In this document: piece after piece, positions 7,721 to 16,483 of the stretch
Position numbering within the stretch: the stretch's first letter is position 1
How the letters are laid out: every line of letters begins with the position of its first letter
Notes under the pieces: generated by a model
What the model saw: the letters and a program-made list of their open reading frames with translations, nothing else
Told to the model about the DNA's origin: nothing
The model's database searches: none
Position numbers and translations under genes: made by a program
NCBI RefSeq assembly: GCF_001499735.1
Contig: NZ_LN848257.1
Span: 4,350,929-4,414,928 of the forward strand
Origin: Thiocapsa sp. KS1
GTDB lineage: Bacteria; Pseudomonadota; Gammaproteobacteria; Chromatiales; Chromatiaceae
Length of the DNA: 64,000 bases
Direction of reading: 5' to 3'

Positions 7721-7790
7721 CGGCTTCGCCCGCAAACGTATCGGCCGCATTCTCAACAGCATTCGAGAGTTGAGCAGGACAGAACCGCGC

Positions 7791-8036
7791 ATGTCACTCG
7801 TAATCTCCGATGAAACACTGCACGCCGCGCACCTGACGGCGGCCGAGCTCAAGCAGGAATTGGCGATCCTGCTCTTTGCGCAAGACCGCCTCACCCTCGT
7901 TCAGGCCGCTGCCCTCGCCGGGATGCGCCCGCTGCCCTTCCAGCATCTTCTCGCCGGTCGGGGCATCGGACCGCATTACGACGTGCCGGAATTCGAGCAA
8001 GATTTGAAGACCTTGAGCAGCCACGGACCCGCCTGA
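7791..8036 (+). CDS. UPF0175 family antitoxin
   Basis: 81 aa from ATG 7791; a TTG 21 bases upstream is the only alternative. SDETLHAAHLTAAELKQELAILLFAQDRLTLVQAAALAGM is the UPF0175 pattern: helix-turn-helix-like N-terminal part and a C-terminal tail (HYDVPEFEQDLKTL) that usually wraps the toxin. One base separates it from a PIN-domain gene, the standard arrangement for this antitoxin family. Expected to neutralise the downstream nuclease and repress its own promoter. Confidence 0.8.
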   Translation: MSLVISDETLHAAHLTAAELKQELAILLFAQDRLTLVQAAALAGMRPLPFQHLLAGRGIGPHYDVPEFEQDLKTLSSHGPA

Positions 8037-8037
8037 C

Positions 8038-8523
8038 GTGGTTGTCTCGAATACTTCGCCCATCATCAACTTGGCCTGCATCGGTCGGTTGAATCTGCTG
8101 CCCGCGTTATATGGCCAGATCGCGATACCTGCCGCGGTCTTTCATGAAATCGCCGTCATCGATCCGGAAGCGCCAGGCGCTGCGGAGATTCGCCGCGCGC
8201 CCTGGGTCCAAACTTGGAGTGTCGCCAATCGACCGCTCGTCGCCGCCCTGAGTCTTGAGCTTGACCCTGGAGAGTCGGAGGCAATCGCCTGCGCACTTGA
8301 GCGCCAAGCCACCTTGCTCTTGATCGATGAGCGACGCGGGCGGAGCGTGGCACAGCGTTTAGGGGTGCCAGTCATGGGACTGCTAGGCGTTCTCCTGCTG
8401 GCCAAGCAACGGGGAATCATCGAGAACATTCGCCCTCTGCTGGATGCACTTCGGCACACTGCGGGATTCTGGATCACCGACGCGCTCTACGCACGGGTAA
8501 TGGAGGAAGCAAGCGAAACATGA
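8038..8523 (+). CDS. PIN-domain (DUF3368-type) toxin
   Basis: 161 aa from a GTG directly after the antitoxin stop. VVSNTSPIINLACIG gives the first catalytic Asp-like position replaced by SNTSP as is usual in DUF3368 proteins; ELDPGESEAIACALE gives the central Glu and LLIDERRGRSVAQRLGVPVMGLLGVLL the last acidic cluster and the conserved hydrophobic end. Family members are ribonucleases of VapC-like fold. It forms a toxin-antitoxin pair with the UPF0175 gene. The pair interrupts the restriction operon between R and M and is flanked by related palindromic repeats. Confidence 0.8.
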   Translation: MVVSNTSPIINLACIGRLNLLPALYGQIAIPAAVFHEIAVIDPEAPGAAEIRRAPWVQTWSVANRPLVAALSLELDPGESEAIACALERQATLLLIDERRGRSVAQRLGVPVMGLLGVLLLAKQRGIIENIRPLLDALRHTAGFWITDALYARVMEEASET

Positions 8524-8721: not shown

Positions 8722-10188
8722 ATGACCGAAAACGCGACCCGCGACATCGTCGCCAAGCTTTGGAACCTCTGCCACATCCTGCGCGACGACGGTGTGACCT
8801 ACAACGAATACGTCACGGAGCTAACCTTCCTGCTCTTCCTCAAGATGATGCAGGAGACCGGGCATGAGGACCGTATCCCGAACGGGTACGGCTGGGAGGC
8901 ATTGTCGAAGCGGGAGGGTCTCGACCAGCTCGAATACTACCGCCGTCTGCTGCTGGATCTGGGCGACACCAAGAAGACGCAGGACCCGACCATTCTCGCG
9001 ATCTTCGCCGACGCGGGCACCAAGCTGCGCAAGCCCGCGAACCTCAAGTCCCTGACCATGGCCATCGACAAGCTGGACTGGTTCTCGGCGCGCGAGGAGG
9101 GCCTCGGCAACCTCTACGAGGGCCTGCTCGAGAAGAACGCCGCCGAGAAGAAATCCGGTGCCGGGCAGTATTTCACGCCGCGCCCGCTGATCGACTGCAT
9201 CGTTCGCCTGACCAAGCCGCAGCCGGGCGAGGTGATCCAGGACCCGGCGGCAGGGACGGCGGGCTTCATCGTCGCCGCCGACCACGACATCAAGGTGCGC
9301 ACAGACGATCTGTTCGAGCTGACCGAGAACCAGGCCTTCTTTCAGCGCCATCTCGCCTACCGAGGTGCCGAGCTGGTTCCGGATGCACATCGGCTTTGCT
9401 TGATGAACCTGATGCTGCACGGCATCGAGAGCAGCATCGTCTGCGCCGACACCCTCTCGCCGGACGGCGAGGCCCTCGGCAAGGCCGATCTCATCCTGAC
9501 CAATCCGCCCTTCGGCACCAAGAAAGGCGGGGGCAGGCCGAACCGCTCCGACTTCTCGATTACGAACGACACCTCGAACAAGCAGCTCGCCTTTGTCGAG
9601 CACATCGTTCGCGCGCTGAAACCCGGCGGACGCGCCGCCGTCGTCGTGCCCGACAACGTGCTGTTCGAGGACAACACCGGGCGACGATTGAGGACCTGGC
9701 TCATGGAGTTATGCGACCTGCATACCGTCCTGCGCCTGCCGACCGGCATCTTCTACGCGCAGGGCGTGAAGACCAACGTGCTCTTCTTCACGCGGGGGAA
9801 GACCGACAGGGCCAACACCCAAGCCGTCTGGGTCTATGACCTACGGGCCAACATGCCCGCGTTCGGGAAGACACGACCGCTCACCGTGGCCGACTTCGCG
9901 GAGTTCGAGGCCGCGTTCGGCGTTGATCCTTACGGCAAGGCGGGGCGAACCGATCAGGGCGAGACCGGGCGGTTTCGCTGTTTCACGCGTGAGCAGATCA
10001 TGGAACGGAACGACAATCTCGATATCGCTTGGTTGCGCGACGAGAGCGAGGACATCGAGGAGCGGTTGAGCGATCCAGACGACATCGCTGCTGCCATCAT
10101 CGTGCATTTGCGCGCGGCGCTTGAGGAGATCGAGGGGTTGACGGAGGAGATTGAGGCGGAAACCTCTTCCCAAGAGGAACCTGCATGA
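8722..10188 (+). CDS. hsdM: Type I restriction-modification DNA methyltransferase, M subunit
   Basis: 488 aa. N6-adenine methyltransferase of the type I complex. The N-terminal helical HsdM_N domain (LWNLCHILRDDGVTYNEYVTELTFLLFLKM) is followed by the catalytic domain with the SAM motif DPAAGTAGF (about residue 173) and the catalytic NPPFGT motif (about 260), and a C-terminal helical tail rich in Glu. Preceding GAGQYFTPRPL is the standard entry to the methylase fold. hsdS starts inside its stop codon. All motifs are intact. Confidence 0.95.
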   Translation: MTENATRDIVAKLWNLCHILRDDGVTYNEYVTELTFLLFLKMMQETGHEDRIPNGYGWEALSKREGLDQLEYYRRLLLDLGDTKKTQDPTILAIFADAGTKLRKPANLKSLTMAIDKLDWFSAREEGLGNLYEGLLEKNAAEKKSGAGQYFTPRPLIDCIVRLTKPQPGEVIQDPAAGTAGFIVAADHDIKVRTDDLFELTENQAFFQRHLAYRGAELVPDAHRLCLMNLMLHGIESSIVCADTLSPDGEALGKADLILTNPPFGTKKGGGRPNRSDFSITNDTSNKQLAFVEHIVRALKPGGRAAVVVPDNVLFEDNTGRRLRTWLMELCDLHTVLRLPTGIFYAQGVKTNVLFFTRGKTDRANTQAVWVYDLRANMPAFGKTRPLTVADFAEFEAAFGVDPYGKAGRTDQGETGRFRCFTREQIMERNDNLDIAWLRDESEDIEERLSDPDDIAAAIIVHLRAALEEIEGLTEEIEAETSSQEEPA

Positions 10189-11567
10189 TTGAGCTTCCAG
10201 CGGGATGGGAGACGGCAACCCTGGGTAGCGTTTCTATCAAATTAGTTGACGGCTCTCATAACCCTCCTGCTAAGAGGGAGTCTGGTCGTCCTATGTTGAG
10301 CGCCCGCAATATTCAGAATGGAAGAATCGTGTTCTCTGACTATCGCTTAATCGATCCAGGGGCTTTCGTTTCGGAGGACTCACGGACGCGCATCAGTCAA
10401 GGCGATGTTCTGCTTACGATAGTAGGCGCACTAGGAAGGAGTGCTGTTGTCGGCTCCAATAACGAGCCATTTACGCTACAGCGTAGCGTTGCTGTGATCA
10501 CTCCATCGGCTATCTTGGACAGCTTTTATCTATCGTACTATTTTCGTTCCCCTGACTTTCAGGAGTGGATTCAAGAGAACGCTAAAGGGACTGCCCAAAA
10601 AGGTCTTTACTTAAGGAAATTGGCAACATCTGTGGTTCCCATCGCACCGCTCTCGGAGCAACGCCGCATCGTTGCCAAGCTGGATAGTCTTTTCGAGCGT
10701 ACCCGTCGTGCGCGTGAGGAGCTGTCCCATATCCCGCGCCTGATCGAGAATTACAAGAAGGCGATCTTGGAGGCGGCGTTTCGGGGGGATTTGACGAGGG
10801 ATTGGCGTGACGCTCACGATGTGCTTGTGGAATCCTGGAGTATCCGCACTTTGGACACCCTCCTCACCGGAACAAGAGCCGGAAAAAATCTACGCTGCGA
10901 AGAACGCCCACCACGTGAACACGAACGAGGCGTCGTAAAGGTCAGTGCTGTGACTTGGGGGACCTTCGATACGAGCCAGGCTAAGACATTGCCTGCTGGT
11001 TTTAATCCATCTCCAGACACGTTGATCCGCAGCGGAGACTTCCTGTTTTCCCGAGCCAACACTATTGATCTAGTTGGCGCATGCGTTATTGTCGAGAACG
11101 CTCCGGAAAACCTATATCTCAGTGACAAAGTCTTGCGCTTGGACATGCCGAATGCAGCAAAACCCTGGGTGCTGTGGTTTCTTCGGTGTCGGCAAGGACG
11201 AGAGCTGCTGGAGAATGCATCGACTGGAAACCAACTATCCATGAGAAACGTTTCTCAGTCGGCATTGCGCGCTATCGCATGTCCTTGGCCAACCGCACCA
11301 GAAAGGCATGAGATTCTTCGGCGCATCGAGTCGAGTATGCAAGCGATTGAGAGGATAAAGTCTGAGCAATCAGTAGCTGCAAAGCTTCTCGATCATTTCG
11401 ATCAAGCAAACCTCGTCAAAGCCTTCCGTGGCGAGCTTGTCCCCCAGGACCCGAACGACGAGCCGGCTTCCGTCCTCCTGGAGCGCATCTGCGCCGCGCG
11501 CGCCGAGCAGCCCAAGAACACCCGCAAAGGGCGCGGCAAGACTGCCAACGCGAGAGTCGCCGCCTAG
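10185..11567 (+). CDS. hsdS: Type I restriction-modification specificity subunit
   Basis: 460 aa. Two target-recognition domains, about 1-150 and 215-395, each followed by a conserved helix. The central one reads PLSEQRRIVAKLDSLFERTRRAREELSHIPRLIENYKKAILEAAFRGDLT, here given in pieces: SEQRRIVAKLDSLF and ENYKKAILEAAFRG; the C-terminal repeat reads NLVKAFRGELVPQDPNDEPA. It decides the bipartite DNA target for both methylation and cleavage. Overlaps hsdM by four bases. The recognition domains are clearly richer in A+T than hsdM, as expected for exchanged specificity modules. Confidence 0.95.
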   Translation: MIELPAGWETATLGSVSIKLVDGSHNPPAKRESGRPMLSARNIQNGRIVFSDYRLIDPGAFVSEDSRTRISQGDVLLTIVGALGRSAVVGSNNEPFTLQRSVAVITPSAILDSFYLSYYFRSPDFQEWIQENAKGTAQKGLYLRKLATSVVPIAPLSEQRRIVAKLDSLFERTRRAREELSHIPRLIENYKKAILEAAFRGDLTRDWRDAHDVLVESWSIRTLDTLLTGTRAGKNLRCEERPPREHERGVVKVSAVTWGTFDTSQAKTLPAGFNPSPDTLIRSGDFLFSRANTIDLVGACVIVENAPENLYLSDKVLRLDMPNAAKPWVLWFLRCRQGRELLENASTGNQLSMRNVSQSALRAIACPWPTAPERHEILRRIESSMQAIERIKSEQSVAAKLLDHFDQANLVKAFRGELVPQDPNDEPASVLLERICAARAEQPKNTRKGRGKTANARVAA

Positions 11568-11617
11568 CAGCTCCCCGTTGATGTCGACCAAACCCCAAAG
11601 CAGCCATAGGACCGAGC

Positions 11618-11758
11618 ATGAACAAAGGAAAGAAGATTGCAGGGGTGACCCGCCAACGGGTCGGTCAGCTGATGCGCACCCTGTTCGAGATCCTGCTGGA
11701 GCATCCAGACGGCATCCAGGCGCAGCTTGCACTCGGAGCGCTGGAGCGGCCCGAACGT
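11618..11758 (+). pseudogene. Mrr N-terminal (winged-helix) fragment
   Basis: MNKGKKIAGVTRQRVGQLMRTLFEILLEHPDGIQAQ resembles in pieces the Mrr_N winged-helix domain often encoded beside type I systems (VTRQRVGQLMRTLFEIL, HPDGIQA). After about 45 codons the resemblance stops and the frame continues with low-complexity Arg/Pro-rich sequence to 12037. I take it as a 5' fragment whose remainder was lost. No nuclease domain is left. Confidence 0.5.
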
Positions 11759-11949
11759 TCAGTGGCGCAGGGGGATGACCGGATGATCGCCTCATCCCAC
11801 AAACGACCGGGCGGGAGCCGCCATCTGGAGCAAGGGCCACGGCGTAAGATCTGTCTCCTCGCTCAACCCAGCCCTTGGGCACACCGCCACCGGGATCGAC
11901 CGACCGGGTCTGTGTTGTCGCCACGCCCATCATCTGCTAGCGTCTCGAT

Positions 11950-12095
11950 GCCGAACATTGTGTATGGTCATCGGGCAGGTGACGAGAAGACCGCCAAAAG
12001 GGCGAGACACCGGCTAGGCAGAATCTGTCCCGACTGAGATAGACAGATTCCGTCTATATCACCTGGCCGACACTCCGTCTAATTCACTGTTCGGT
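11950..12095 (+). repeat. Possible attC site upstream of the AbiTii gene
   Basis: Left core GCCGAAC (11950-11956), right core GTTCGGT (12089-12095). Inside, TCGGGCAGGTGA on the left pairs with TCACCTGGCCGA on the right, and a third hairpin GAATCTGTC / GACAGATTC sits at 12021-12050. At 146 bases it is long for attC and the arms are unequal, so it is the weakest of the set. Confidence 0.4.
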
Positions 12096-12113
12096 TTTGA
12101 AAAGGAGAGCAAT

Positions 12114-13010
12114 GTGGCTTCAATCGTGTTAGAGCTTCAACGTGATGCCTTAGACAGAAATGTTCCGATTACCGATCTTCTACGGAAGGCACTCGTTGTT
12201 TCGCGCAAGCTGCACCAAACAAGTTTTCAGGAATGGATCGAAAGCGAACTAAATGGCTATCAAGGTGATTTAGAAATTCCTGATTATCGAGAAATGGTTG
12301 GTCAGGTAAAAGGGTGGAATCCGTATCACGGTTGGATGCCAGTAATAATCAATGAACCAGAAATCATGGATATGCTTTCTAGACGTCATTCCAGCCAATC
12401 AATATCAGAGATTGAAAACCTGATTGAACGACAAGAGTCTAGCTCAACACTACATATGCCCTTCCCATCAGGCCAGCAACAAGTTCTTAGGCAAGCTGTA
12501 AACTTTAATACGGAATTTTCCTTATTCATTGGTCGAAGTGCCCTATCAAGGGTGGCAGACGCCGTACGTAATACTGTCTTAACTTGGGCATTGAAGCTAG
12601 AGGATGATGGAATATTAGGAGAAGGGCTGAGTTTTTCCAATTCGGAAAAAGAAACCGCCGCCCAGTCTAACTACAATATAAATAATTTCTTTGGCGAGGT
12701 TAAAGATACCCAAGTACAGCAAGCAACCGGTGCGTCGAATCAGCAGCACGCCAACAAAACCGCCGATGTTGAAGCGTTGTTGGCATTAATTGGCTTGTTG
12801 AGAGGTAAGATCGACGAAATCGATTTCAAGGGAGATCAAAAAGAAGAGATTCTTTCTGATTTGGCAACCATCGAATCCCAAGCGGGCTCGCCCAAGCCAA
12901 AACAAAGCATAATCCGTGAATCATTAAAGAGCATACGCTCAATTCTAGAGGGGGCTGGCGGAGGTGCAGTTGCTCAAGTTCTTATTGAAATTGGCAAGAT
13001 ATTGGTCTAA
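12114..13010 (+). CDS. AbiTii-domain abortive-infection-type protein
   Basis: 298 aa. The N-terminal 190 residues match the AbiTii domain (IVLELQRDALD...ITDLLRKALVVSRKLH, FQEWIESELNGY, GWNPYHGWMPVI, AVRNTVLTWALKLEDDGILGEGLSF in pieces). A short Asn/Gln-rich stretch, YNINNFFGEVKDTQVQQATG, follows and then a helical C-terminal part with PKPKQSIIRESLKSIRSILEGA, a tail seen in several predicted defence effectors. Start is GTG 12114 with AAGGAG six bases before it; the overlapping ATG at 12112 runs into a stop at once. Lower GC than its neighbours. It lies between two attC-like sites, so it probably moved as a cassette. AbiTii is annotated as a predicted toxin in abortive-infection loci; its chemistry is not known to me. 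Confidence 0.75.
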   Translation: MASIVLELQRDALDRNVPITDLLRKALVVSRKLHQTSFQEWIESELNGYQGDLEIPDYREMVGQVKGWNPYHGWMPVIINEPEIMDMLSRRHSSQSISEIENLIERQESSSTLHMPFPSGQQQVLRQAVNFNTEFSLFIGRSALSRVADAVRNTVLTWALKLEDDGILGEGLSFSNSEKETAAQSNYNINNFFGEVKDTQVQQATGASNQQHANKTADVEALLALIGLLRGKIDEIDFKGDQKEEILSDLATIESQAGSPKPKQSIIRESLKSIRSILEGAGGGAVAQVLIEIGKILV

Positions 13011-13016
13011 TGCGTC

Positions 13017-13095
13017 ACCGAACAATGCCATTCACAAGGACGCCAAACTCTCCGCTGCGCTCCAAGTTTGGCGCCTGTGATGGCTGGCGTTAGGC
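13017..13095 (+). repeat. attC site after the AbiTii gene
   Basis: Left core ACCGAAC (13017-13023), right core GTTAGGC (13089-13095). Outer arms pair through GCCAT-TCAC / GTGATGGC with one extra base. Inner arms CGCCAAACT / AAGTTTGGCG also carry one bulged base, with a GC-rich loop between. Length 79 and the bulges fit known attC structure. It begins seven bases after the AbiTii stop, and the next gene starts 22 bases after the right core. Confidence 0.75.
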
Positions 13096-13116
13096 ACATA
13101 CACGGATGATGTCCCA

Positions 13117-13305
13117 ATGTCTACCGATCTGTACAAACAATTTGATTCCGATCTCGCCTCTTGCAACAAATGCGCGGACATCCTCGCGAATTTCAGAATC
13201 GATCCCTGTGCGTCTGACGAGTCCCTAGTACCGAGACCAGTTGTCTCCGGTATACGGACCAAACCAGTGATGGTGATCGGACAAACACCCGGACTTACTG
13301 GGTCA
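13117..13305 (+). pseudogene. Uracil-DNA-glycosylase-like gene, 5' fragment
   Basis: About 62 codons: FDSDLASCNKCADILANF, RPVVSGIRTKPVMVIGQTPGLT. This resembles the start of the uracil-DNA glycosylase superfamily (CxxC and the GQxPG water-activating loop region). Right after PGLT the reading runs into GGGTCA-type repeat sequence and then through an attC site, so no complete enzyme is encoded. Placement 22 bases after an attC core fits a cassette gene later cut by repeat insertion or recombination. Confidence 0.6.
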
Positions 13306-13330
13306 AAAAGGGGTCAGGTTCGGAAGAGAG

Positions 13331-13380
13331 GGGGGCAGGTCTTGCTTTTTGCCTTTCCAAATAATGAAGATGCCCAACAA
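13331..13380 (+). repeat. CAGGTCTTGC repeat, copy A, with attC left half
   Basis: GGCAGGTCTTGCTTTT followed by AATGAAGATGCCCAACAA. The last part contains the left core GCCCAAC (13372-13378) but no matching right half follows; copy B begins instead 14 bases later. It looks like a truncated attC preceded by the repeat. Confidence 0.65.
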
Positions 13381-13391
13381 GTACAGGTTAT

Positions 13392-13437
13392 GGGGTCAGG
13401 TCTTGCCTTTTACCCCAAGAATGAAGAGCCTAACAAG
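13392..13437 (+). repeat. CAGGTCTTGC repeat, copy B, abutting an attC left core
   Basis: GGGGTCAGGTCTTGCCTTTT then AATGAAGAGCCTAACAAG. It runs directly into the left core of the attC at 13428. Confidence 0.7.
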
Positions 13438-13525
13438 CGGGCTCAAGAGCGAGCGCGCGCTACGGACGTCGATCCAGTTCGCCAGGTCATCAGTGGCGCG
13501 CGCCGCTTTACCCCGGACGTTCGGC
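13428..13525 (+). repeat. attC site before hicA
   Basis: Left core GCCTAAC (13428-13434), right core GTTCGGC (13519-13525). Inner arms GCGCGCGCTAC and GTGGCGCGCGC pair, outer arms pair across GCGGGCTCAAGAGC / GCTTTACCCCGG with bulges. Length 98. hicA starts 46 bases after it. Confidence 0.7.
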
Positions 13526-13571
13526 TCCAAACAAACAAGAGGCGTCGCGAAGCTGGGTTCGTCTTTGACTC

Positions 13572-13826
13572 ATGAAAAAGCGCAAGCTGCTCCTCAAACT
13601 TCTCTCCGGCTCCAAGAATGTGCGGTTTTTGGAAGCAGTAGCGATAGCTGAGGCTTTCGGCTTCCGATTGGACAGAGTGAACGGAAGCCATCATATTTTC
13701 GTTCATCCGAAGATTCCGGAATTGTTGAATCTGCAGGATTTGAAAGGCAAGGCGAAGCCCTATCAAGTCAAGCAATTGCTCCAATTGGCGGAGCTTCACA
13801 ACCTGCAACTGGAAGGCGAATCATGA
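13572..13826 (+). CDS. hicA: HicA-family mRNA interferase toxin
   Basis: 84 aa. The double-stranded-RNA-binding-like HicA fold with the catalytic His in GSHHIFVHP and the C-terminal PYQVKQLLQLAELHN helix. The N-terminal extension (MKKRKLLLKLLSGSKNVRFLEAVAIAEAFGF in pieces) is usual for this subgroup. The partner hicB overlaps its stop by four bases. Toxins of this family cut mRNA and stop growth when the antitoxin is lost. Lies 46 bases after an attC core. Confidence 0.88.
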   Translation: MKKRKLLLKLLSGSKNVRFLEAVAIAEAFGFRLDRVNGSHHIFVHPKIPELLNLQDLKGKAKPYQVKQLLQLAELHNLQLEGES

Positions 13827-14041
13827 AGGATTACCACGTTAACATCTTCTATAGCGATGAAGATGAAGGCTACATTGCTGACATTCCGGATTTGAAAGCG
13901 TGTTCTGCATTCGGCGAAACGCCTAACGAAGCTTTGGCCGAGGTTCTGAAAGCTAAAGAGAGCTGGTTGGCATCCGCAGCGGCGAACGGCAAGCCAGTTC
14001 CGCCACCAGAATACCGTCCGGTGATCTATCGCGTTGCATGA
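13823..14041 (+). CDS. hicB: HicB-family antitoxin (short form)
   Basis: 72 aa. YHVNIFYSDEDEGYIADIPDLKACSAFGETPNEALAEV is the partially degraded RNase H fold typical of HicB, given here as recognised pieces EGYIADIPDL and AFGETPNEALAEV. It has the short tail PPPEYRPVIYRVA and no C-terminal DNA-binding domain, so autoregulation, if any, must be indirect. Overlaps hicA by four bases. Expected to bind and block HicA. Confidence 0.88.
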   Translation: MKDYHVNIFYSDEDEGYIADIPDLKACSAFGETPNEALAEVLKAKESWLASAAANGKPVPPPEYRPVIYRVA

Positions 14042-14078
14042 GGAAGCCGAACAATTATAATTAAAGGGTGAGAGAGCG

Positions 14079-14120
14079 TGGTCAGGTCTTGCTTTTCCTA
14101 GCAATGAAGATGCCCAACAA
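14079..14120 (+). repeat. CAGGTCTTGC repeat, copy C, abutting an attC left core
   Basis: GGTCAGGTCTTGCTTTTCC then GCAATGAAGATGCCCAAC. Same layout as copies A and B: the repeat leads into the left core of an attC. Confidence 0.7.
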
Positions 14121-14216
14121 GTGAATAAACGGCGACCCAAAGTCCGCGGCCGGCTCTGTGCCAAAATTCGAGTTCGTCGGGCGCGGTTTTTGGGTGCGTT
14201 ATTCTGAACGTTGGGC
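14112..14216 (+). repeat. attC site after hicAB
   Basis: Left core GCCCAAC (14112-14118), right core GTTGGGC (14210-14216), perfectly complementary. Arms continue with GAATAA-CGC-ACCCAAA against TTTGGGTGCGTTATTC with two extra bases, then CCGCG / CGCGG. Length 105. It is the clearest attC of the window. The next ATG is nine bases downstream. Confidence 0.8.
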
Positions 14217-14224
14217 GAAAACCG

Positions 14225-14452
14225 ATGAACGCAATCAGCGGAATAATAAATGAAAACTACGGATGGGAAGTAACCGTATTTCATAAGCTGCGTGAAGCAT
14301 CCGATGGTGTGATATTCTTTGATGGAAAAATAAACTGGGATAGATACCTTGCAGATCATTCACCAAGGTTTGAAATACATCTTGTAATGGTCAACTATAC
14401 GATAATTGAAATAAGTGTTTACTACTTACATCATAGAGATGAAGGAGAGTAG
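14225..14452 (+). CDS. Cassette-borne small protein of unknown function
   Basis: 75 aa. I recognise no family. Acidic and aromatic-rich, with predicted mixed helix and strand (GWEVTVFHKLREASDGVIFF, FEIHLVMVNYTIIEISVYYL). No signal peptide or clear membrane helix. It starts nine bases after an attC right core, the position expected for a cassette gene, and is AT-rich relative to the chromosome. Followed by an IS630 scrap where its own attC would be expected. Confidence 0.5.
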   Translation: MNAISGIINENYGWEVTVFHKLREASDGVIFFDGKINWDRYLADHSPRFEIHLVMVNYTIIEISVYYLHHRDEGE

Positions 14453-14530
14453 GAGTTCCGGGGACAGTGCCGGGGTCACCGGAAATCATTTGTGGATACC
14501 GGTCTCATCTGAGGTTTCCTCTCAGGAGTC

Positions 14531-14645
14531 TAGCGCAAGACCCTACAGCAAGCTGGTGTTTCTTCCTCCCTATCCTCCGAATCTCAATCCGATCGAGCGA
14601 TTATGGAAGCTCTTAATGAAAACGACGCTCTATAATCACTATTAG
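14531..14645 (+). pseudogene. IS630-family transposase, C-terminal fragment
   Basis: The frame reads LVFLPPYPPNLNPIERLWKL and then LMKTTLYNHY with a stop. This is the last conserved block of the DDE domain of IS630 transposases, with the catalytic Glu of NPIERLW. About 37 codons remain; the rest of the element is absent and no inverted repeat is visible. It occupies the place of the attC that should end the preceding cassette; an ATTAGGC that could be a damaged right core lies at 14641-14647. Confidence 0.75.
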
Positions 14646-14666
14646 GCAACAAACATAGAACGCGGC

Positions 14667-14951
14667 ATGTTCAAGAAATACATTTACGGAGGAAGAGTTT
14701 CTGACGTTGCTTCAGCAGGAGGCGTGCAGGGATTTCTTATAAGAAGTGGTACAGAGCTTCTTTTCAGAGTATACAGAGATGACGGTTCCTTCACAGACTA
14801 CGATATTTATCACGATGATCTATCCATAACAATAGATTCAGATGCGCTCGCATCGTTTTATAGTGATGGCGAAAATCATATTCTTGACCATAGCCCAGAT
14901 GTATTTGGCTTAGAGAAAGCGAAAGAAAATGATGAAGAGAAAAAATTATGA
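14667..14951 (+). CDS. Cassette-borne small acidic protein of unknown function
   Basis: 94 aa, no family recognised. Predicted mostly beta (GGVQGFLIRSGTELLFRVYR, DDLSITIDSD) with an acidic C terminus. The opening MFKKYIYGGRVSDV is basic and aromatic. AT-rich. It begins 19 bases after a possible damaged attC core and is followed after 42 bases, filled by a hairpin, by another small gene on the same strand. Confidence 0.5.
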   Translation: MFKKYIYGGRVSDVASAGGVQGFLIRSGTELLFRVYRDDGSFTDYDIYHDDLSITIDSDALASFYSDGENHILDHSPDVFGLEKAKENDEEKKL

Positions 14952-14953
14952 GC

Positions 14954-14993
14954 TTGACATTTTCTAGCTACTTAATGGCTAGAGGTATGTCAA
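14954..14993. promoter_or_regulatory. Perfect inverted repeat directly before the next start codon
   Basis: TTGACAT (14954-14960) pairs with ATGTCAA (14987-14993), and inside it CTAGC pairs with GCTAG around a nine-base loop. The ATG of the following gene comes immediately after. The likely ribosome-binding AGAGG (14981-14985) lies in the right arm, so the hairpin could hide it; alternatively it is an operator. Confidence 0.6.
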
Positions 14994-15233
14994 ATGTCGG
15001 TAATAAACAAAGCAAAAGACAGAGATAGCAAAGGACGGATCAAGCGTAAGTATACCGGCCCATATTCAACCTATTGGCTTAGTCATACACCCCGATGGTG
15101 GGTGAAGATGTTTATGAACAAGCCAAAGCGGAGGCAAAATAAGAGGATATGTATGGCAGTAATTAGAGGAGAAGACCCTAATGGTCTTATATATCCATTG
15201 GGCAACAGAAAGCCGCATGAGTACTATTGGTGA
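14994..15233 (+). CDS. Small basic, aromatic-rich protein of unknown function
   Basis: 79 aa, strongly basic: KDRDSKGRIKRKYTGPYSTYW, then WWVKMFMNKPKRRQNKRIC. The end, PLGNRKPHEYYW, is compact and aromatic. I recognise no domain. The charge pattern would suit nucleic-acid binding, but this is not evidence of it. Start follows a perfect hairpin. A left attC core (GCCTAAC) lies five bases after the stop, which marks the gene as part of the cassette array. Confidence 0.5.
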   Translation: MSVINKAKDRDSKGRIKRKYTGPYSTYWLSHTPRWWVKMFMNKPKRRQNKRICMAVIRGEDPNGLIYPLGNRKPHEYYW

Positions 15234-15238
15234 TGCCT

Positions 15239-15245
15239 GCCTAAC
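15239..15245 (+). repeat. attC left core without right half
   Basis: GCCTAAC followed by GAGAGAGCCATCAAACCG. No complementary right arm or GTTRRRY core follows within 150 bases. Probably the broken right end of the array. Confidence 0.4.
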
Positions 15246-15316
15246 GAGAGAGCCATCAAACCGACCCCAAAAAGGGCGCGTCGAGTTCGGAGCGATTTAT
15301 CGACTAGATTGAAGCC

Positions 15317-15541
15317 ATGACCAATACCACAACTAAATCCGTCCGGTGTATCGATCCTGCCGGCGCTGAAGACCTTGAAAAGGGTAAAGTGTATCAAGTC
15401 CTCACGGACAGCAGCGCAGAGGCGGAAGGCTTGCTAAGGGTAATCGATGAGTCAGCAGAAGACTACCTATACCCCTCAGCGGGATTTGTTGTTCTGGATC
15501 TACCTCGGAAGGCGCGCGATGCTCTGAGTACACGCATATAG
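15317..15541 (+). CDS. Small conserved-looking protein of unknown function
   Basis: 74 aa. KSVRCIDPAGAEDLEKGKVYQVL and LLRVIDESAEDYLYPSAGFVVLDLP have the look of a compact SH3-like beta barrel seen in many short accessory proteins (a 'KGKxYxV...DE..DYLYP..F' pattern). Function not known. It follows the broken attC by 71 bases and may be the last cassette gene. Confidence 0.5.
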   Translation: MTNTTTKSVRCIDPAGAEDLEKGKVYQVLTDSSAEAEGLLRVIDESAEDYLYPSAGFVVLDLPRKARDALSTRI

Positions 15542-15624
15542 GTCAACATATCGCCCAAGGATTATTAGGGACATACCACGGTATTGCGGCTTGGCACTCG
15601 CGTACCACCCGAACAGTGTATATC

Positions 15625-15668
15625 GGGTCAAGGCTTGAAATCAGGAACATGGGGTCAAGGCTTGACCC
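15625..15668. repeat. Direct repeat with embedded 17-base palindrome
   Basis: GGGTCAAGGCTTGA occurs at 15625-15638 and 15652-15665; the second copy extends to the palindrome GGGTCAAGGCTTGACCC. It lies 70 bases before the methyltransferase start and resembles the GGTCAGGTCTTGC repeats of the cassette array. Confidence 0.6.
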
Positions 15669-15736
15669 TTATGCCCGAATGCCTGTGTGCCCTGTCGGAA
15701 TCTATTCACATCAGAAAAAAAATTCGTTTCTCTACA

Positions 15737-16483
15737 ATGGACATTCCGCGGATCTTCAACATCACTGAGAGTGCTCACCGCATTCATAACCCGATCACAC
15801 CCGAGAAGCTCGCCACGCTCGGCGCGGCGCTGCGTCTGGAATCGGGGGCCCGAGTGCTCGATCTCGGCAGCGGCTCGGGGGAGATGCTGTGCACCTGGGC
15901 ACGCGATCACGGCGTCATCGGCACAGGCGTTGACATGAGCCAGTTGTTCACGGAGAAAGCGAAGCTCCGCGCCGAAGAGCTCGGCGTCGCCGATCAAGTC
16001 AAGTTCATCCATGGCGATGCTGCCGGCTATGTCTCTGACGAGAAGGTCAGTGTGGCAGCCTGTGTCGGCGCCACTTGGATCGGCGGGGGAGTCGTCGGCA
16101 CGATCGAGCTTCTGGCGCGGAGCCTGCGCACCGGAGGGGTCATCCTCGTCGGCGAGCCCTTCTGGCGGCAGTTACCGCCGACGGAAGAGGCTGCCAAGGG
16201 GTGTCTTGCCAACTCAATCTCCGACTTTCTCATGCTTCCGGACCTTCTCGCGTCTTTCGGCCACCTCGGCTACGACGTCGTTGAAATGGTTCTGGCTGAC
16301 CAAGACGGCTGGGACAGATACGAGGCGGCCAAATGGCTCACCATGCGCCGGTGGCTGGAAGCCAATCCCGGCGACGAGCTCGCGAAAGAGGTTCGAGCCA
16401 AGCTGATCGCGGAACCCGAGCGCTATGCCGCTTACACGCGTGAATACCTGGGCTGGGGTGTGTTCGCGCTGATGCCGCGGTGA
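15737..16483 (+). CDS. Class I SAM-dependent methyltransferase
   Basis: 248 aa. The SAM-binding glycine motif is VLDLGSGSGEM near residue 43, followed by GTGVDMSQ, FIHGDAAGYV and VGATWIGGG, as in small-molecule methyltransferases of the Methyltransf_25/11 group. The N terminus MDIPRIFNITESAHRIHNP fits the family start, so the ATG at 15737 is preferred over an upstream in-frame start at 15584. Substrate unknown. GC is back to the chromosomal level, so it is probably outside the cassette array. Confidence 0.8.
   Translation: MDIPRIFNITESAHRIHNPITPEKLATLGAALRLESGARVLDLGSGSGEMLCTWARDHGVIGTGVDMSQLFTEKAKLRAEELGVADQVKFIHGDAAGYVSDEKVSVAACVGATWIGGGVVGTIELLARSLRTGGVILVGEPFWRQLPPTEEAAKGCLANSISDFLMLPDLLASFGHLGYDVVEMVLADQDGWDRYEAAKWLTMRRWLEANPGDELAKEVRAKLIAEPERYAAYTREYLGWGVFALMPR

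Follow-up and report, generated by a model that had tools for sequence, protein, structure and literature searches.

We examined a predicted integron cassette array in a 64-kb stretch of the Thiocapsa sp. KS1 genome (C1:4350929-4414928, hereafter the window; the genome comprises 10.38 Mb in 43 contigs). The original prediction, made from the letters of this stretch, was of a cassette array that lacks an integrase, includes defence genes and adjoins a type I restriction locus. This reading is supported, and its interpretation is right but incomplete. HsdR, HsdM and HsdS of the restriction locus were all found, and the cassette genes and other open reading frames (ORFs) are AT-rich, as had been proposed, with 36 to 52% GC versus 64% for the whole window. 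Comparisons were made with a genus sample of 11 genomes, including the source genome, and a family sample of 146 genomes, of which 80 have a match above cut-off to the integrase (intI) model TIGR02249. G numbers denote genomes and L numbers fetched loci. The principal features of the array are as follows, with attC scores from the covariance model R1 (see below).

11895-11933, minus strand: apparent intI stump, a start codon and about 13 codons (tblastn, 8/13 identical, E 0.15)
11934-12089, plus strand: attI region, with a conserved core at 12005-12089 and crossover G12089|T12090
12090-13089, plus strand: cassette 1, beginning TTCGGT; its R" core at 13017, ACCGAAC, exactly complements GTTCGGT
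12114-13010, plus strand: AbiTii-family gene, 298 aa (Pfam PF18864, 1.9e-49; PADLOC AbiTii, 3.8e-56)
13017-13095, plus strand: attC of cassette 1 (site 1; R1 53.1 bits, E 1.2e-10)
13090-13519, plus strand: cassette 2, beginning TTAGGC; its R" core GCCTAAC at 13428 is the exact complement
13428-13525, plus strand: attC of cassette 2 (site 2; R1 25.4 bits, E 5.3e-4)
13520-14052, plus strand: cassette 3, beginning TTCGGC; its R" core GCCGAAC at 14046-14052 is the exact complement, and the rest of the attC is missing
14112-14216, plus strand: attC without a cassette body of its own (site 3; R1 38.9 bits, E 2.9e-7)
14211-14452, plus strand: start of cassette 4, with a 75-aa ORF at 14225-14452 and a 78% DNA match to G123 from 14216
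14642-15268, plus strand: cassette 5, beginning TTAGGC (G lost), with ORFs at 14667-14951 and 14994-15233 and R" core GCCTAAC at 15239
15291-15558, plus strand: distal piece with a 74-aa ORF at 15317-15541 and 92% DNA identity to the G146 array
15688-16483, plus strand: right flank, a methyltransferase gene, where homology with G146 resumes

The attC sites were searched for with a model built outside the genus. Twenty regions adjoining intI genes were fetched from other genera of the same family, and a fold-based scan of these yielded 56 candidate attC sites. R1 was made from 42 of the 56, hand-picked from intI-bearing loci with the own genus excluded; the 14 left out were too long or were likely insertion-sequence or coding stretches. 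RNAalifold returned no pairs on the first alignment, in which MAFFT had misaligned the palindromes, and the structure of R1 was assigned by hand; its E-values are rough because the calibration was short. The covariance search, which had been suggested beforehand as a check, matched all three strong attC-like sites where they had been predicted (E 1.2e-10 to 5.3e-4, all on the plus strand) and returned nothing else over the 64-kb window up to E 10; with filters off, the next best score over 11400-16000 was 9.1 bits. attC sites carry single-base bulges on one arm, and the folded bottom strand of site 1 has three one-base bulges, on one arm only. Site 1 is closely similar in sequence to an attC at L105:1216-1294, which adjoins an intI gene of another genus. 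A DNA search of the source genome with site 1 found no second copy, just chance matches of 15 to 17 bases, and an Rfam search of the window at gathering thresholds returned no integron-related family. The predicted broken sites were also recovered, as R" cores at 13372, 14046 and 15239 that lack a second half; an apparent half attC, seen by eye, lies 3' of the last of these. A weaker attC-like site proposed at 11950 (11950-12095) does contain an inverted repeat, but this stretch belongs to the attI region.

In an inserted cassette, the R" core near the 3' end is expected to match the R' core at the cassette's own 5' end. In each of cassettes 1 to 3, R" and the R' that opens the cassette are exactly complementary (GTTCGGT/ACCGAAC, GTTAGGC/GCCTAAC and GTTCGGC/GCCGAAC), whereas in cassettes 1 and 2 the R" and R' within one attC do not match. 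In control arrays, an exact cognate match was found in 34 of 64 pairs and a local match, within the same attC, in 16 of 64, whereas shuffled pairs matched in 9.4 of 64 on average and in at most 19 in 5,000 shuffles; the 64 control pairs were collected with the fold scanner, and false sites as well as two arrays from the source genome are among them. The match in cassette 2 adds little because GCCTAAC is the commonest core (26/64 in the control pool). The cores of cassettes 1 and 3 do not occur in that pool (0/64). The first G146 cassette is likewise cognate (GTTAGCT/AGCTAAC).

The DNA that precedes cassette 1 is attI-like. The stretch 11894-12091 matches the G023 DNA between intI and the array (72%), and 12005-12091 matches the same place in G102 (85%), whose IntI is an intact open frame of 477 aa. 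Integrons cut at G|TTRRRY, according to the available text of PMC9892861. A search of the genus with the attI region gave 11 rows at E 4.6e-5 or better, which represent 10 copies (two G146 rows are halves of one). With a long query, homology stops at 12090-12097, within 8 bases of G|TT, in seven of the nine other copies, and earlier, at 12064 and 12083, in the remaining two. The nine copies that keep the attI core lead into nine different downstream sequences; at G|TT itself, the second T is changed in L089 and the G in L073 and L083.

On the minus strand beside attI stands an apparent remnant of intI. Its translation, MMGVATTQTRSVD, is identical to MGDVQTTRTTSVD at 8 of 13 positions (tblastn with residues 1-90 of the intact G102 IntI as query, E 0.15), and at the DNA level the G023 match that covers attI extends without interruption through this stretch, into the intI start region of G023 and as far as 11894 (72%, E ~1e-22). 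None of the genome's 11 TIGR02249 matches falls inside the window, consistent with the predicted absence of an integrase. Among the other attI copies, intI is intact in G102 and is read as two overlapping frames in G023. Stretches of 10 to 79 intI codons stand in the window, at two G139 loci, at a second G146 locus and in G148, and no intI was found in the fetched stretches of two G071 attI loci. Within the fetched stretches, 8 of the 10 attI copies are without a usable intI alongside. Because the attI region and the apparent 13-codon stump are kept, the locus is an integron from which intI has apparently been lost, rather than a bare attC cluster. The predicted likeness to a cluster of attC sites lacking integron-integrases (CALIN) holds in that at least two attC-model sites are present and no integrase match lies within the 64 kb; the locus differs in that an attI region and an apparent intI stump are still in place here.

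The intI deletion junction is common to the window and two sister species (G146 and G139). The window aligns unbroken through this junction to G146 over 10656-12091 (92%), and to G139 over 11394-12091 (85%). The first gene after attI differs in all three: AbiTii in the window, PD-T7-3 in G146 (N part, 2.7e-65; C part, 2.6e-71) and a HEPN/RES gene in G139 (HEPN_RES_NTD1, 6.6e-39). In G146, two ORFs that are IS630-like by eye lie between the PD-T7-3 parts, and a HATPase gene follows. Beyond attI, the pieces common to the window and G146 are distal: 14071-14218 (85%, including site 3), 15291-15558 (92%) and the flank from 15688. Homology to the right flank in G146 starts inside the R' of an attC-model site, the last of the G146 array. 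Decayed copies of site 3 with mutated cores occur in G146 and G149 (85% and 80% similar), cassette 4 matches G123 from 14216 on (78%), that is, from the R' of site 3, and the hicAB stretch 13571-14042 matches G148. In G071 the left flank extends to 11699 and the right flank begins at 15644; attI and the array are both absent there, and their place is taken by a 550-aa ORF that is protease-like by eye (L074 5779-7431). A comparison of sister strains had also been suggested with the original prediction; gene content differs among the relatives, and no identical order was found.

The search for intI beyond the window, another suggested check, had a divided outcome: none lies in the window, but two intI-like loci lie elsewhere in the genome, on C1 at ~1.70 and ~2.53 Mb. 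The IntI ends encoded at the two loci are near-identical to each other and match the intact 474-aa IntI of G146, N-terminally at 93% over 109 to 110 residues and C-terminally at 96% over 72, and the loci are adjoined by 5 and 6 attC-model sites. The G102-type IntI was not found elsewhere in the source genome. Over the whole genome, R1 gave at least 10 sites (150 of 5,049 candidates scored), and sites 2 and 3 of the window are not among the 10. Single attC-model sites also lie outside the three arrays, at C1:3405779, 4761072, 903350 and 4909249 (E 8e-4 to 0.05).

Since the proximal cassettes differ and the distal pieces are shared, the polarity of the array differences suggests insertion in trans after the loss of intI. 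We consider it probable that the locus is a beheaded integron in which the defence-type cassettes nearest attI were put in place by an integrase supplied in trans, and the case for such activity appears unusually clear from sequence comparison. The intI gene would have been deleted to about 13 codons before the three species split, with the deletion inherited vertically and older than the present first cassettes. Later cassettes would have entered or left at the predicted attI by means of an integrase elsewhere in the cell, for which the two resident intI loci of the source genome are the candidates. The attI and attC sites would still be recombined, and AbiTii and its counterparts would act against phages.

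Several observations weigh against this account. The middles of both resident intI genes read as N, so these genes may be broken, and the resident type shares only 52% identity with the G102 type, the one found next to this attI. The 13-codon stump gives a weak protein alignment (E 0.15), and tblastn found none in the orthologous G146 locus, whose DNA does align to the window over this stretch. In the R1 search, neither the G146 copy of site 3 nor the G149 copy reached E 0.5. Much of the array appears to be decaying, because several attC sites are broken by insertions, and the deletion and the array could have been brought together by homologous recombination.

Given the decay, the locus might be a dead relic, in which the cassettes were inserted with intI in cis, the deleted left flank (the hsd side) either spread among the sister species through homologous recombination with an end point in attI or arose more than once, and nothing has moved since. 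The broken attC sites and the IS630 fragment within the array fit such a history. So do the Xanthomonas strains described in the available text of PMC12444791, where the same intI lesion usually goes with identical arrays, read there as inactivity. Recombination next to the array does occur, because the target region of hsdS has been swapped between genomes (10156-10655 is unaligned to G146 and G139). We nevertheless regard a dead relic as rather unlikely: breakpoints inside attI would be needed in at least two species, and the alignment to G146 is unbroken from 10656 across the deletion junction and into attI.

Ordinary homologous or insertion-sequence-mediated recombination could also have produced the array differences with no integrase at all, and IS630-like pieces are present in the window and in the G146 arrays (in G146 by eye), as are repeats. 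This is very improbable given that the junctions in the window and G146 lie at G|TT, that the first cassettes have cognate R"/R' ends, and that the G123 homology starts at 14216, in the R' of site 3. Finally, the palindromes might be chance or terminator-like hairpins rather than attC sites. On one strand shuffled in blocks five times, a looser fold filter gave 11 matches in total (about 2 per 64 kb), and in the real window it gave 3 on the plus strand and 4 on the minus strand, one of the 4 being site 3 read backwards; with a shuffled background of this size on each strand, palindrome counting alone was rejected as evidence. A model from other genera nevertheless matches these three sites and no others, with E-values down to 1.2e-10, and site 1 has its close relative beside the intI of another genus. 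Chance hairpins are hardly credible as an explanation.

With a loss of intI dated by its presence in three species, and with later cassette differences at an attI that was retained, the locus can be used to ask if arrays of this kind are dead or served in trans, and an intI deletion reaching up to the start codon illustrates a possible origin of CALIN. In the three sister species, the first slot is filled by predicted defence genes of three families. Across the nine attI cores, AbiTii and PD-T7-3 match PADLOC families, HEPN/RES matches Pfam only, and one first gene matches DrmA weakly (1.8e-6); the second ORF in L089 matches PDC-S15, and the first gene in L077, cut by the contig end, was left out of the PADLOC scan. 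The HATPase family that follows PD-T7-3 in G146 is also the first gene at a G071 attI. The idea that a defence gene always occupies the first slot found no support: four of the nine first genes or ORFs have no PADLOC match. We tentatively propose, with considerable doubt, that at least 8 of the 10 attI copies, having lost their own integrase, keep or kept taking up and exchanging defence cassettes via integrases of the same cell, as a docking network served in trans. If this were true, one integrase would feed several defence-gene slots, one of them beside a restriction locus.

Phage-defence genes are known from recent work as cassettes in both sedentary and mobile integrons. The present locus resembles these in its defence-type cassette genes and differs in that they stand at attI copies without an integrase of their own. 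The available text of PMC9024848 states that IntegronFinder detects no attI outside class 1, so a locus of this sort would be classified as an ordinary CALIN. Mobilisation of CALIN in trans is possible, as stated in the part of PMC12444791 available to us. The same text describes a sedentary chromosomal integron of Xanthomonas with an inactivated intI, which is similar to the present locus in its fixed position, deleted intI and retained array; unlike the usual case there, where the same lesion goes with identical arrays, a shared lesion here accompanies different attI-proximal genes. For Xanthomonas species that lack full-length intI, that text puts the share of cassette genes seen in a single isolate at 28.7% and 38%; array variability in the absence of intI is, to that extent, already known. 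No report of an orphan attI with continued turnover was found in the portion of the literature searched, a scope outside which most subscription journals fall. Integrase-less arrays and defence cassettes are already known; the interest of this locus lies in the probable continuation of cassette turnover at an orphan attI.

The predicted AbiTii gene of cassette 1 was borne out by both Pfam and PADLOC, with a domain score of 168.9 bits versus a curated Pfam cut-off of 27.6. The C-terminal part of the same protein matches AbiTi (PADLOC, residues 187-292, 9.3e-7). The protein is like the AbiT abortive infection system in having a full AbiTii domain, and unlike it in that one 298-aa ORF includes an AbiTi-like C-terminal part, whereas PADLOC models AbiTi and AbiTii apart. 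This one-protein form is not special, because relatives of about 300 aa are common (635 found, the best 120 of the 635 listed). In the family sample AbiTii is rare, occurring in 4 of 146 genomes including the source genome. The AbiTii gene of G093 (30% identical over residues 3-237) is immediately preceded by GTTAGGG, and its stop codon is directly followed by an attC-model site (29.3 bits), so that by its sequence it is also flanked by cassette ends; no attC-model match flanks the other two family AbiTii loci. Among named genomes, relatives were found at one locus (43% identical), in which there is no attC-model match.

The remaining genes of the array are as follows:

13572-13826, plus strand: hicA-like toxin gene (PF07927, 3.5e-9)
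13823-14041, plus strand: hicB-like antitoxin gene (PF21748 UPF0150, 28.8 bits, cut-off 27.3)
14415-14645, plus strand: IS630-type transposase fragment interrupting the array (DDE_3, 3e-7; NF033545, 32.5 bits, cut-off 100)

The HicA call is confirmed; its candidate HicB partner passes the UPF0150 cut-off and falls below that of HicB_lk_antitox (24.9 bits, cut-off 27). A glycosylase fragment had also been proposed; no Pfam, NCBIfam, PADLOC or PHROGs match confirmed it. The ORF of cassette 2 (13117-13575), which continues through its own attC, likewise has no match in these four collections.

A 14-base pattern, GGGGTCA(G/A)G(T/G)CTTG, has three exact copies in the genome, two of them in the array at 13392 and 15651, and variants of 13 to 14 bases occur at 14080 and 15625. 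By eye, these repeats adjoin R" cores without a second half, and the repeat may possibly be an element that breaks attC sites. The source genome, with a listed contamination of 1.13%, includes two contigs of ~5.1 Mb within its 10.38 Mb, and the other ten genomes of the genus sample measure 3.3 to 6.1 Mb. In the restriction locus, a UPF0175 and DUF3368 gene pair, likely a toxin-antitoxin module, lies between hsdR and hsdM (7770-8523), and the unaligned HsdS segment noted above has 89 to 96% identity to G146 and G139 on both sides, as a swapped target-recognition region would.

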